From contig OY997643.1 in assembly GCA_963921795.1 (NCBI GenBank), positions 15,323,620-15,387,619 on the forward strand: a DNA stretch of 64,000 nt. The letters are read 5' to 3'. Origin of the DNA: Nannobrachium achirus (taxonomy: Eukaryota > Chordata > Actinopteri > Myctophiformes > Myctophidae). Made by a program: the position numbers and the translations under genes. This document shows, in pieces, positions 7,728-62,630 of the stretch. Below the pieces are notes generated by a model. It made no database searches. It saw only the letters and a list, made by a program, of their open reading frames with translations, and was not told the origin of the DNA. Every line of letters begins with the position of its first letter. The first letter of the stretch is position 1.

Positions 7728-8085
7728 CAGAGGTGGAAACAATTTAGAAATACTCTGTTACAAGTAAAAGTACATAATTCAAAATGTACTTGTGCAAAAG
7801 TACAAAAGTATTGGCATTAAAATGTACTTAAAGAACTAAAAGTAAAAGTACTCATTATTTCAAGTTTTTAAATGTAGGGCATGCAGGCTATACAAATCTT
7901 TTGAAAATAGCAGATCTACAGGCTCACAATGCATCGCATCGCGCTGCGATTTGAGCTTGCAGATCTGCAACTTTTGATGTTTTTGCTGGACGCTGTAGTG
8001 GGATCAAGTAGGGCGTTAATTTACGAGAAAAATAACTCAAAAGGTTAACATATGGAAATAAGAGATTTCTGCCCGACAGCGACGA
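7728..8085. mobile_element. Chimeric MITE: CAGNGGTGGAAA left half, TCGTC-family right half
   Basis: The left half starts CAGAGGTGGAAACAATTTAG and has the AAGTAAAAGTAC phrases of the elements at 54308 and 56226. The right half has TTTTGATG...AAGTAGGGCGTTAATTTACG and ends GATTTCTGCCCGACAGCGACGA, the TCGTC family. The joint lies in a palindromic core at 7901-7978. The 8 bp on either side (tatgtagc, aataagcg) are not a TSD, as expected of a recombinant. An insertion followed by deletion is the alternative. Confidence 0.7.
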
Positions 8086-8285
8086 AATAAGCGTTGAAGA
8101 ATGATGAAAAATCATGTGCCCTTGTTGTGCCCTCTTATGACAGCCTCTTTCCAGAAGTCAAAAGCATCAGTAATTCAGCATGCCTTCACGCAACCATAAT
8201 ATGCCTGTACACAAACACAAACACACATCAAAGTAGAGTAGCAACGCTATATTGCAGCCTGGAACGCGAGGCCTTTTGCAAGTGC

Positions 8286-8486
8286 AACACAATATTGTCA
8301 CTGTCGGGTGAAAACGTTGTATGTCCTTTTTAACAAATGGAAAAAAGAACGTGTTTCCAATACTTTAAAAAGAAATGTTATACAGTAGTATGACGTAGGT
8401 AGGGCAATAATTTAACGTTGATGTAAAAGGTTGAAATACTGTATGGAGACACAAGGTATCTTGCGTGACAGCGATGATATTCAGCG
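8286..8486. mobile_element. TCGTC-family MITE
   Basis: Its left end TGTCACTGTCGGGTGAAAAC and right end ATCTTGCGTGACAGCGATGA are inverted versions of one another and match the family termini at 20246-20474. It is about 200 bp with no coding potential and no core palindrome. The right end is followed by a 13-bp direct repeat (cagcgatgatatt twice). Confidence 0.65.
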
Positions 8487-8920
8487 ATGATATTCAAGCA
8501 GTATCAGTCTCCTGTGGTTTGTGCTGTCAGGATATCCTTGGAAAGCTATGGAATATTCACTAAATCAGGCATCATCAGATAGACATCAGGCCACCTGTTT
8601 TTCGAAGGACCTCCAAGGATGCTGGCGTTCATCATCCTCATCATCCAGGCCTCCGTTGCCATTCCGCACAGGAGACATCGCGACTCGCACGAAAACCCAC
8701 GCACACGTCGGCATCTGGTGATTTTCTCTGATTTATTTATGACAACAAGCATTACATCTGTCTACACACAGTCTGACCTCCTCGCATGCGAGTATAACGT
8801 CTGACCTTCCTCGCATGCGAGTAAAACGCACGCTGGCCGCTGGCTCGGAAAAAGAAGTCGGAAGCCGAAAACCGCACTAAATGAGATCCTGAGGAAGAGC
8901 GAGGGATCAGGTTTATTTTA
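8487..8920. other. Interval without recognised features
   Basis: It contains a near-duplicate CCTCGCATGCGAGTATAACG / CCTCGCATGCGAGTAAAACG at 8778-8830. No gene is seen. Confidence 0.4.
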
Positions 8921-8921
8921 A

Positions 8922-9165
8922 CGTTGCTGTCGGGGGCGTGCAGAAACCTCTTATCTCCTTATTTTAACTTTTTGTGGTTTAATTCTTTTGGTAAATCAAT
9001 ACCCTGCTCGATCATACTTACAGCGTCTCACAAAACAAAAGCATCAAAGGTAGAAGATCCAACAGAGCTTGTGAATCTGCTAACTTTTGATGCTTTTGAA
9101 TTTGAACGCTGGAGAAAGCGGCGGTTTTCGGACATACAAGGTTTCCACCGGACGGAGACGATAAG
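8922..9165. mobile_element. TCGTC-family MITE with central palindrome
   Basis: The left end CGTTGCTGTCGGGGGCGTGC then AGAAACCTCTTATCTCC is inverted relative to the right end GGACATACAAGGTTTCCACC then GGACGGAGACGA. The centre (9041-9092) is a diverged core palindrome flanked by GCATCAAA/TTTTGATGC. Not coding. Confidence 0.75.
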
Positions 9166-9603
9166 AGGCACCGTGATGGTGGTGGTACATGCTGTGATAG
9201 TCCAGCCCTTCTCTCTCCTCCTTCAAAACCCCAACATGTTTATTGTTTATATGTGACATCCAGGATGTTCAGTGGGATTCCGTGTGTTTACCACCTCAGA
9301 ATGGATGCCAGGGCCCGGCGTTCAATCATTATCAAAGCCCTCCTCGACTCAAACCAGCGCCCAGATGCTGTTTAACAAAAGCATCACCACAAGAGGCAAA
9401 ACACATCAATACACAAAAGGAACTTGTGAATATCTACATGACAGTCAAGTATTTGCAAATATGTCCTCCCGGATAACAACACGGGCTCAGACGCCCTAAT
9501 CCCGGGCGATTTAGAGAAACGTTACCCTCTGCGTTATGCTGATGAAGACTGACTTTGAAAGGAAACAGAGAATGCAAAATGATCTACTGTGCCCTCCAAA
9601 ATG

Positions 9604-10054
9604 TCAACCACGTGTTGCACAGCAGTTCTCAGTAGTGGTGGGCGCTAGCCGCGCCAACAGCGGTCGACGTTGGAATGGTGGAGGAAGAGTCTGGGCAAGA
9701 AGCCCCAAACCCCGGCATCGTGCGGCATGCTCCTCCACTTTGGGGTCGGCTGCGTTGAGTTTTGTAATTACGAATTTTTTAGACACGTCCCTCTATGGTT
9801 GGCACGGAGGACCGCAAACCGCCGAGCGCCGTTTCATCTGTCCGCCTCGCTCAGCGACAACATCCTCCGCCGCGGCGTGGATCACAGGGCCGAGGGGAAC
9901 GAGGGCATCAACCCTGCACATGTTGAACATCTTTTCCCCCTCTTCTTCTTCGGCGTGTCTCGCACAAACACGGACGGCCTGCTCTAAACGCTGTTGTTTC
10001 CGTCGATACAGATACACGCTGTATATCATTGGCTTTGTTCGGTGTGCCAAGTGA
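9604..10054. other. GC-rich open region, coding status unresolved
   Basis: Frames stay open for 172 codons on + (9536-10054) and for 89 codons on - (9793-10062). The patch is clearly richer in CpG than its surroundings. None of the translations shows a domain I recognise, none has a signal peptide, and open frames on both strands are expected in GC-rich DNA. It may be an untranslated first exon, a promoter island or a relic. Confidence 0.25.
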
Positions 10055-10070
10055 ACAACCATGCCTGAAT

Positions 10071-10560
10071 AGCAGTGGTTGAAAGTAACATTCTACAAGT
10101 ACTCAAGTACTGCAAAGTTGAGGATTTTTTTACCTAACTGGAGTGTTTTCAATTGTCTGTACATTTACTTCTACTCCATTACAGTACATCTCAGTGATAC
10201 ATGTTTTTACTCCACTACAATTATTTAGAAACTTTAGTTACTTTGTAGATTTGTATTATTATTAGTACAAAATATGCATTAACCATCCCTATATACTTGA
10301 ACTATTTGAAAATAGCCAATCAAAGGCTCACCACGTGTCGCATATAGCGATGTGATGTGAGCTCTGCTATCTTCAAAATATATCTATCGATTTTGAACAC
10401 TTGTGAAATGGGACATTGTACATAATGAATACTTTTACTTTTGGCACTTTAGCTCATTCACTACCAAGATTAAATTAATTTTATAAATACAGGACTTTCT
10501 TGTAACAGAGTATTACTGCATTGTGGTAATGATACTTTTACTGAATATGGCTATTGGTCC
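10071..10560. mobile_element. CAGTGGT-AGTAAAAGTA family MITE with core palindrome
   Basis: It begins CAGTGGTTGAAAGTAACATT and includes CTTCTACTCCATTACAGTAC, the reverse complement of the family arm. The palindrome at 10304-10379 pairs TTGAAAATAGC with GCTATCTTCAAAA. The right border is approximate. Confidence 0.65.
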
Positions 10561-61103: not shown

Positions 61104-61129
61104 TCTCACTCGGGGTAAATTGCTTACGT

Positions 61130-61320
61130 TTGTCATGATGCTGAATCCATTGCAATTTGTTTTGCACAAAAAACATTCCTTGGGCTAAAAATGGCCCCAG
61201 AAAATGATGGTTTAGTGATGAAAAGTGATGAGTCATCACCTTTTGTGGGCGTTTTCTGGGGCCAATGAATGTTTTTTTGTGCAAAACAAATGCTTGCAAT
61301 GGATTCAGCATCATGACAAA
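61130..61320. repeat. Inner inverted repeat
   Basis: TTTGTCATGATGCTGAATCC...GGCCCCAGAAAATG is mirrored by TTTTCTGGGGCC...GGATTCAGCATCATGACAAA with a 35-bp spacer. Confidence 0.92.
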
Positions 61321-61893
61321 CCCCTAGTTAGACCCCTCACATCCTACTTGAAGCAGATTTTTTTCTGGGTATTTTCCTCCTGTATAGAAAGTCGATGGGA
61401 GCCCAACTTGATTTGGCCGCTGTGGGTATTTGCAGTGAGCAGATCAGGGTAGATTTTTTTATCCTGGCTAGTAGACCTAATTTCCTGACAGAATCAGTTG
61501 AAAAACGAAATAATAACATTTTGTCCAACCTCTGCCTTATATTTACCGGCCTAAATACATTCAGTATGGAGAAGCAGATGCAGAAGCACATTGACATGAT
61601 ATGCACTGACATGATAGGCACGGCACTGCACCACACCACATTTTCATATCTAGCTTTTCCATTACAGTATTTTTTGAGGCCCGGACAAAGCCAGATGTTG
61701 GAGCAAAAAAATAGCAGATAATAAAAATAGAAAATATTGAGGTGAAAAAACTTTGAGCACCACTGATATAGAAACAGGAGCAGAGTGTCGGCGTGAGTCC
61801 GGTTCGCTATTTGACCTGAATGATCTTATATCTTATAGTATCTTATAGTAAACATCGGAGAATTTGTTTTTATCCTGTCTGTTTGTCTTTCAG

Positions 61894-61986
61894 CCCGTGG
61901 TTCAATGTGTTGTTTGTAGCCCGTATTCAGCACGTCACACTTCTACCCCTTTCATCGACTGCGTTAGAAGAAAAGATGAGAAGACG
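61894..61986 (+). CDS. rarres2: Chemerin-like protein, exon 3
   Basis: 31 codons between tttgtctttcag and gtaatt, phase 0 at both ends. PVVQCVVCSPYSARHTSTPF then IDCVRRKDEKT provides three Cys; the C-V-V-C pair matches the C-L-A-C of mammalian chemerin, a spacing cathelicidins lack. With exon 2 this makes five of the six Cys expected; the sixth would be in the missing last exon. Confidence 0.85.
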
Positions 61987-62029
61987 GTAATTAGCCATGA
62001 TGATTAATCAGCATATATATACTGTATAT

Positions 62030-62081
62030 AGTGTGTGTGTGTGTGTGTGTGTGTGTGTGTGTGTGTGTGTGTGTGTGTGTG
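62030..62081. repeat. (GT)n microsatellite
   Basis: About 50 bp, directly after the ATATATATACTGTATATA run in intron 3. Confidence 0.97.
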
Positions 62082-62082
62082 T

Positions 62083-62200
62083 TAGGGCATTCACGAATAG
62101 TGATTTTTTGAATTCGAATTAATCGACCTCAAAGTATTCGAATAGTCGGAATTCGACGGGAATTATATATATATTTTTTCATCCAATAAAAACGAGCCAT
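62083..62200. mobile_element. MITE-like end with TTCGAATA words
   Basis: TAGGGCATTCACGAATAGTG and GAATTCGAATTAATCGACCT, GTATTCGAATAGTCGGAATT are typical of a fish hAT repeat. The far end is not found. Confidence 0.5.
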
Positions 62201-62493
62201 TCTCGGCCTCTCAATCATTGATGCGCTGTTTCAAGTCTTGAACACAACATGCGAGTGAGGGTTAACCACTGGAGGCGGGACAGACCTGAAGGTTAGTGAA
62301 ATACGATTGGCTATTGACCGTGGCATTTACAAATGAGCCGCGACCTGATTGGACTAAGCGACCAGCAAGTATGGGTGCGCTCAGTGCTTCCCCTGGAACA
62401 GTACATTTGACAGCTGTATAGTTTGCCTGCATCACAGCGCAACAGTTTCTAATCAGTTTCTCTTTCATGCTCTAAAATAAAAAGACTTTAACC

Positions 62494-62630
62494 CAGCGGT
62501 TCACATTACCAAACAGTTTAGCCCGTGACCCAAAATAGAAATTAGACAATCGCCCAGGACCCAAACTAGTGAAAACAGCAGATCTACAAGCTCACAACGC
62601 CGCGGCTCGCACCGTGAGCTGGTGGAAATA
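62494..62630. mobile_element. hAT-like fragment with core left arm
   Basis: CAGCGGTTCACATTACC, CCCGTGACCCAAAATAG, CCCAGGACCC, then GAAAACAGCAGATCTACAAG and CTCACAACGCC (62571-62600). The right arm is cut after GTGAGCTGGTGG. Confidence 0.65.

Follow-up and report, generated by a model that had tools for sequence, protein, structure and literature searches.

A recurrent imperfect hairpin shared by several hAT-type transposon families in the genome of Nannobrachium achirus

RESULTS

An imperfect hairpin recurs in the window and across the genome

We analysed a 64,000-bp window of the genome of the fish Nannobrachium achirus (assembly GCA_963921795.1, contig OY997643.1; G000:C6:15323620-15387619 in our numbering), in which a short imperfect palindrome, hereafter the core, recurs within transposon-like elements belonging to several lettered families with different ends. 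Nineteen hairpins in the window pass a strict two-arm criterion and the addition of single arms brings the number near 30 (Table 1), in agreement with an earlier reading of the letters alone (the sequence-only reading), which had put the hairpin at about 30 occurrences. The 20 positions given there as clear copies all show both core arms, one arm being broken or weak at 26195 and 33424; among the positions given as partial, 9041, 10304 and 62571 are indeed so and 55559 is unconvincing. Arm matches of at least 14/19 number 49 in the window, against 2, 3 and 0 in three base shuffles. The two-arm test on the window and 28 further loci (L001-L028) gave 67 rows, or 66 after removal of one overlapping row (L009, 5640), which was dropped from all later counts.

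Genome-wide counts cover the 1.66-Gb assembly in 564 contigs. A search of the genome with the core arm, which the sequence-only reading had proposed, returned 293,019 forward and 292,676 reverse matches to the 20-mer AGCAGATCTACAAGCTCACA with up to 2 mismatches; the reversed control pattern gave 1 and 0. At about one arm match per strand and hairpin, the genome would therefore hold roughly 300,000 hairpins, an estimate from arm counts in which single arms and tandem arrays are counted too. Rfam, searched at gathering scores with the window only, has no RNA-family match to the core; the sole match in the window is a UnaL2 long interspersed nuclear element (LINE) 3' element (RF00436) at 42452-42506. 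A literature search, with subscription papers largely outside its scope, found no description of such a shared hairpin module, and a text search with five core strings, at any position, found them in one unrelated paper only. The decayed 59-bp core at L024:4765-4823 has no neighbouring repeats within the sample and may adjoin an exon.

The core has a common plan

The core consists of an outer stem, one mismatch, a 25-bp inner stem and a 3-nt loop. Its GC-to-GC length over 113 hairpin loci is 59 bp in 48, 60 bp in 8 and between 26 and 102 bp in the others. These loci are a non-random set composed of the window, 20 places picked by position, exact-arm places on contig C1 and copies of B chosen through the left half; L069, a satellite, and the loci without an arm pair (L062, L065, L075, L084, L087 and several of L029-L048) are excluded. 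DNA folding gives the A, B, E and K representatives one shape, with an outer stem of 13-16 bp and energies of -47 to -48.7 kcal/mol. The C representative has an outer stem of 6 bp (-37.6 kcal/mol), and that of D has two other mismatches and none at pair 3 (-38.7 kcal/mol). Pair 3 is mismatched in 52 of 81 non-D hairpins; for the remaining 16 outer pairs the average is 6.9 of 81. This mismatch is asymmetric (GCA against GCC) and recurs across families except D; its A/C state is found in A, B, C, F, K, J, G and unassigned copies, and the mismatch is absent from both M hairpins. The two arms of each hairpin match one another at 0.829, the maximum over 5,000 re-dealt arm sets being 0.766. In the copies read, the sequence directly beside the core consists of family-specific inverted repeats, not direct repeats. 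Because 48 of the 113 loci are exactly 59 bp long and the asymmetric mismatch recurs across families, the core is most likely a single ancestral imperfect hairpin common to many families.

The core lies within hAT-type shells

Among the sampled loci the core is found in hAT-type elements of six end types and in one TCGTC-ended element. Short terminal inverted repeats of the CAG...CTG kind are present in B, C, D, G, H and I; A2 has ATCGTC/CGTC instead. Target duplications match at 8/8 in G (ends CAGGGGCGTCAATTGG), in H (CAGGGGTTCCCAAAC) and in four elements of I (CAGGGACGTGCTGGG; three in the window and one in L093). In B (CAGTGGTTCTCAACC) they match at 8/8 (L024) and 7/8 (L016), in C (CAGGGGTCTTCAACG) at 7/8 (L017) and in D (CAGGGGCGTCACAAGG) at 8/8 in L009, 7/8 at 42922 and 3/8 at 47183. 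The 8-bp duplications which the sequence-only reading ascribed to several core-bearing families are thus real for G, H, I, B and D, with C at 7/8; together with one A2 element these are the families covered, the CAGTGGTGGAAA families (F) and J, K and M lying outside. The B-like stretch 23072-24349 lacks a duplication (4/8). TCGTC ends number 31 in the window and L001-L028 by eye, 16 of them preceded by TA, and in several copies the core lies between such ends; among the TCGTC-ended elements a clear 8-bp duplication flanks 20247-20475 alone, so that A is a candidate for an element in its own right. Each D element read, whether in the window or in L009, has two cores, and a segment of family A, with its own inverted ends and a core, is contained in both the H and the I shells. 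An automatic survey of duplication-bounded hAT-like elements in the window and L001-L028 scored 7 of 14 with core matches and 7 of 14 without; one of the latter, L020:1725-2022, has a partial core on alignment. In the G element at L016:377-1162, an insertion with ACACTCGCATGACT inverted ends replaces one core arm.

Transposase sequences were sought with PF05699: 150 matches were scored of 1,653 candidates, and no connection with the termini of B, C, D, G, H or I was made for any of them. Many of the 150 have open frames and some form groups of identical score, which suggests recent activity. The core as part of an autonomous hAT element was considered and set aside, since four 4.4-kb stretches around hAT matches (L089-L092) gave no assignable core. 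A hairpin is present in L089 and L092, one weak arm in L090 and none in L091, and hAT ends with duplications were sought in these stretches and not found, the ends of the transposase elements being undefined. The L092 hairpin belongs to a neighbouring C element. In three other copies of the 479-aa transposase group (L093-L095) no C element lies within 1.1 kb downstream; a family I element follows the copy in L093. For L089, three other copies of its score group do not align with it at the place of the hairpin, so that nothing follows from it. Helitrons have no target duplication, TC...CTRR ends and a 3' hairpin; the 8-bp duplications, CAG ends and internal hairpin seen here contradict such an assignment.

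Most families do not align outside the core

The sequence-only reading had found the families unalignable by eye outside the core. We compared 21 multi-copy half-families as consensus strings, in 210 pairs with 200 shuffles each. Eight pairs beat all their shuffles in a rerun, about 1 being expected; in an earlier run 10 of the 24 pairs listed did so. Two inner halves of D are among the clearest matches (30.6 against at most 19.0 in shuffles), and C-left matches J-right over about 90 bp (22.9 against 17.9 and 18.8). Between B and G the likeness covers the core and one flank for about 40 bp; the remainder differs. A 21-bp match between C and F and a match between A and G failed or barely held in the rerun and were not used. 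The full-length hairpins of B and C have a mean identity of 87% over 59 bp and 75% over 87 bp, while within families identity over 59 bp is 90% in B and 94% in C; none of the four B/C half pairs beats its shuffles, all four scoring below them. To judge by these consensus comparisons, the families are mostly unalignable and a few share one side, so that the earlier impression stands for most half-families and fails for the shared sides of B/G and C/J.

In family B the core is probably inherited with the element

Is the core inserted into these elements or inherited with them? Family B was approached with a query that stopped before the core; 40 of 1,185 candidate places were scored and 20 of the 40 fetched, the first four scored, on one stretch of C8, being excluded from the 20. 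All 20 fetched copies, which are among the best-scoring ones, carry recognisable core sequence beside the left half (L046 was counted from its alignment), and 16 continue into the B right half. In alignment four of them (L035, L037, L043, L048) read as rearranged within or beside the hairpin. Across the genome 1,579 B copies have anchors 60-90 bp apart and 122 have them 3-33 bp apart, the range searched excluding 34-59. Among 100 listed of these 122 core-poor copies there are 26 different gap sizes, none dominant, the largest class comprising 14 copies, six of them in one stretch of C18. Such a spread indicates a continuum of deletions in B and no empty site. The sequence-only reading had offered the core as a mobile hairpin in its own right and had looked to core-less members with a clean junction; in B, the only family tested, neither idea finds support, gap sizes being continuous from 3 to 33 bp. 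No bare hairpin with a duplication of its own was seen in the sampled loci, the only place looked at. Within family B the bare hairpin is not independently mobile. Single alignments give further readings outside it: two core-free relatives of G (L027, 1813-1988, and L024:5393-5883) have a different interior with another hairpin, L014:445-798, set against L006, is missing the core together with some 40 bp of adjoining sequence, and the H-type L012 appears to have an internal deletion.

Exchange occurs at the palindrome and is rare where counted

Two chimeras in the window, with F left and A2 right at 7910 and B left and A2 right at 53799, have their junctions inside the palindrome, and L004 has C-left on both sides of the core. 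Genome-wide exchange counts were made with exact anchors for the B/C, C/C and B/B combinations only. B-left with C-right occurs in one copy, L102, against 1,579 B and 2,217 C; here a complete B hairpin gives way to C sequence at the base of its right arm. Turn-backs, counted by anchors only, occur at two places for C/C and two for B/B. Each counted exchange type is at about one per thousand or below, and rearrangement of any kind at the hairpin is commoner (4 of the 20 B copies). Larger modules move whole, as in the A segment with its core within shells H and I. The other earlier suggestion, that the core spreads by recombination, is thus upheld in part: palindrome-crossover chimeras (7910, 53799, L102) and the single shared sides of B/G and C/J agree with it, and the rarity of the counted exchanges does not. 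Tandem arrangements of core sequence were also observed. In L069, from about 552, the core arms form a tandem repeat with a 45-bp satellite unit; at window 23614-23816, within a CAGTGGTTCTCAACC-ended stretch, a 40-bp tandem unit resembles the core of B joined to B flank; and at L024:8187-8597 a B element has head-to-tail arms and a perfect duplication.

Stem pairing is kept between families while single copies decay

Eleven representatives were compared pair by pair. Between families, 18 of 41 stem pairs have changes on both sides; 50 cells are double-changed and 7 one-sided, with about 39 unpaired. Paired cells amount to 91.4%, against 32-44% in slid controls, and 0 of 500 shuffles reach as high. 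The representatives are hand-picked, two being variants of included families, and the structure was derived from them, so that the 91.4% leans upward. Of the loops in 28 full-length B copies, 14 read GTT and 11 read the reverse complement, AAC; those of D are uniformly oriented (TCG 9/10, TTG 1/10). At one B locus with three segmental copies both arms have changed alike. Template switching appears to account best for the stem pairing between families. A paired-change count on 28 of 29 full-span B strings from 100 listed, in which 0 of 588 pairs are changed on both sides (0.68 expected by chance), led us to reject routine symmetric repair of the arms in fixed copies; arm copying is therefore rare after insertion.

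Among 100 listed B copies the palindrome span carries a deletion of at least 5 bp in 63, and among the 100 listed for the flank span 16 are so affected (Fisher p ~1e-11; length-scaled expectation 24.9), as found with patterns that tolerate about 30 bp of loss, two lists of B copies that differ and spans copied by hand. Nevertheless 8 of the 9 families with more than 2 copies have 59 bp as their most frequent single length (A 4/9, B 8/16, C 5/11, D1 4/9, D2 2/7, D3 4/5, J 3/4, K 2/3); the four copies of F have four lengths (1/4 at 59), G has 0/2 at 59 and M has 60 twice. As 59 bp is commonest despite the rapid decay of the palindrome in fixed copies, we infer that the family founders had intact hairpins. 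Retention of the hairpin suggests, without proof, that it helped amplification, young founders alone being an alternative; as the sequence-only reading proposed, it may be favoured within miniature inverted-repeat transposable elements (MITEs).

Features of the window

The core copies are collected in Table 1. Two other repeats were noted. A palindrome CCATATATGG, which we take to be a CArG-box-like sequence, is present in 16 copies in tandem arrays at 37646-38714, with 13 more copies within 1.1 kb in L094 on another chromosome, and a tandem repeat with a 65-bp unit (16.6 copies) occupies 5306-6389.

Table 1. Core copies in the window and the elements that contain them
Position	Core or element	Target duplication	Core position	Remarks
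7910..7968	59-bp core; left F (CAGAGGTGGAAA end), right A2 type (TCGTC end)	none seen		chimera
20247..20475	A2 element, CGTC/ATCGTC ends	ATGGAAAT, 8/8 on both sides	20323-20380	
25972..26490	family I hAT-type element (CAGGGAAGTGCTGGG)	GTGAAGAT, 8/8	~26203	A segment with core, right arm broken
27782..27837	core copy			flanks unmatched in sample
28655..29229	family G element (CAGGGGCGTCAATTGGG)	CCACTGAG, 8/8	29082-29128	
29714..29751	core in family F			shortened, 38 bp
30247..30732	family I element	CTGCTATG, 8/8	30446-30476	shortened
31940..31982	decayed core copy			right half C-like
33431..33463	core in C element (CAGGGGTCTTCAACG end at ~33718)			shortened; arms 15/19 and 14/19
36428..36959	family I element	GGTAAATG, 8/8	36669-36698	
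42922..43431	family D element (CAGGGGCGTCACAAGG)	7/8	43009-43063, 43294-43352	
45849..45874	core in family C			shortened, 26 bp
47183..47802	family D element	none (3/8)	47282-47318, 47594-47652	
48862..48887	core in A2-like element			shortened; outer stem GCATCAAAAGTA, symmetric
53799..53878	core; left B (CAGTGGTTCTCAACC at 53591), right A2 type (end near 53977)	none seen		chimera
56442..56500	59-bp core			grouped with family F at looser threshold
56921..57258	one D element		56921-56957, 57217-57258	right end near 57353
58321..58373	core in family B element			CAGTGGTTCTCAACA start near 58197

DISCUSSION

Based on these observations, we propose that the ancestral hairpin is an inherited internal module of non-autonomous hAT-type families, which is amplified with the element, recombines at the palindrome and is not mobile alone. 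We assign this reading a probability of roughly 60%. According to it, an ancestral imperfect hairpin became an internal module of non-autonomous hAT-type transposons and may have been inherited by many descendant families. The core would be amplified with its element by hAT transposases acting on the ends; the 8-bp duplications are seen, and the identity of the transposase is presumed. New families would be formed when the module, taking between 0 and about 230 bp of flank along, becomes attached to new halves or shells. This would happen through palindrome breakage or template switching there, through exchange between adjacent cores, or through nesting, in which another shell comes to enclose a core-bearing segment such as A. 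These routes are suggested by the chimeras, the shared sides and the presence of A in two shells. Occasional template switching would copy one arm onto the other and invert the loop, so that the stem would stay paired while its sequence diverges between families. Several observations weigh against this picture. The exchange events seen resemble rearrangements in place, without target duplications, and the birth of an amplified family by exchange is not caught in our data. Family D departs from the common plan, with the pair-3 mismatch in 1 of 32 hairpins and a pair-7 mismatch in 24 of 32. The GTT and AAC loops of B could reflect either spacer inversion or two founders, and the latter would speak against the model, as does the want of doubly changed pairs in fixed B copies. 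Finally, the pair-3 mismatch persists though flanking pairs have changed symmetrically; simple whole-arm copying would erase it.

A functional module read by its shape is still conceivable, given the survival of that mismatch and the intact founders. In such a scheme the hairpin would be an amplification module acting in cis: a transposase-linked or host factor would recognise the folded shape, and carriers would win whatever their ends. In its favour are the modal length of 59 bp in most families in the face of rapid loss of the palindrome from fixed copies, the like folds of A, B, E and K, the shape kept while sequence changes and the recurrent mismatch outside D. We nevertheless regard it as unlikely. 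We know of no factor or activity that binds the hairpin, coreless relatives with perfect duplications exist (H-type L012, L014:445-798), half of the surveyed duplication-bounded elements have no core match, and F, G and M do not keep to 59 bp. Nor was a core assignable to a transposase-bearing element in the four stretches inspected, whose element ends are undefined. Moreover, template switching alone can keep the pairing and young founders alone give intact modal lengths. A more specific version, in which the hairpin is a transferable amplification signal, set by its shape and one obligatory mismatch, acquired by different families and raising the copy number of its carriers, seems to us distinctly unlikely.

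Common descent of whole elements could also account for a shared core, if all stem from one core-bearing ancestor and divergence has made their flanks unrecognisable. All six well-defined shells are indeed hAT-like, with CAG...CTG ends and duplications of 8 bp or 7/8, and some families have one side in common. Yet B and C hairpins remain far more alike than their halves, which score below shuffles; fixed hairpins are not conserved, most listed copies being damaged; and two different shells contain the A segment together with its core. This alternative, which the sequence-only reading had named as the one that would overturn its own proposal, is disfavoured and we consider it improbable. We hold it highly improbable that the bare hairpin transposes by itself and inserts into other MITEs. 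The many shells and the decayed copy at L024:4765 would fit such insertion; the core in every fetched B copy, the lack of a single empty-site size in B and the family-specific inverted repeats, in place of direct repeats, beside the core do not. An independent origin of the hairpins in each family, at palindrome-prone sites, would draw on the core-free G relatives (L027, L024:5393), which bear other hairpins and so form them readily. Arm sequence, length and asymmetric mismatch are common across families, though, and the shared mismatch speaks strongly against separate origins in the families that have it, which makes this scenario scarcely credible. The inherited internal module thus remains our preferred reading.

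What are the implications of such a module? Non-autonomous transposons are usually sorted by their ends, whereas here an internal module crosses those borders in an estimated total of about 300,000 copies. The genome thereby offers a deeply replicated natural record of how a near-perfect palindrome, about 80 bp long, fares in a large genome, in which decay, loop inversion, arm copying, exchange, turn-back and conversion to tandem repeats are recorded. It also makes testable the question whether a DNA structure can raise transposon copy number whatever the ends. For annotation there is a warning: families whose ends differ would be merged if elements were clustered by internal sequence.

hAT-superfamily MITEs are a known class in teleosts. 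They resemble the elements described here in their CAG...CTG ends and 8-bp target duplications; what differs is that one hairpin module is common to several mostly unalignable end types. The Angel elements of zebrafish are reportedly a single family whose whole body folds. They are short, palindromic and of high copy number in a fish, as the core-bearing elements are, whereas in N. achirus one palindrome recurs inside several families. Bacterial REP/REPIN hairpins are likewise many, short and in some cases imperfect; the present hairpin, in contrast, lies inside elements with 8-bp duplications. A further parallel concerns template switching between inverted repeats, of which arm homogenisation and spacer inversion are given as marks in PMC8604942, and paired changes likewise in PMC8604942 and PMC8794818. 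The paired arm changes and inverted spacers of those repeats are matched by what we see in the core. Those accounts concern yeast coding genes and RNA genes, whereas here the palindrome lies inside a very abundant repeat.

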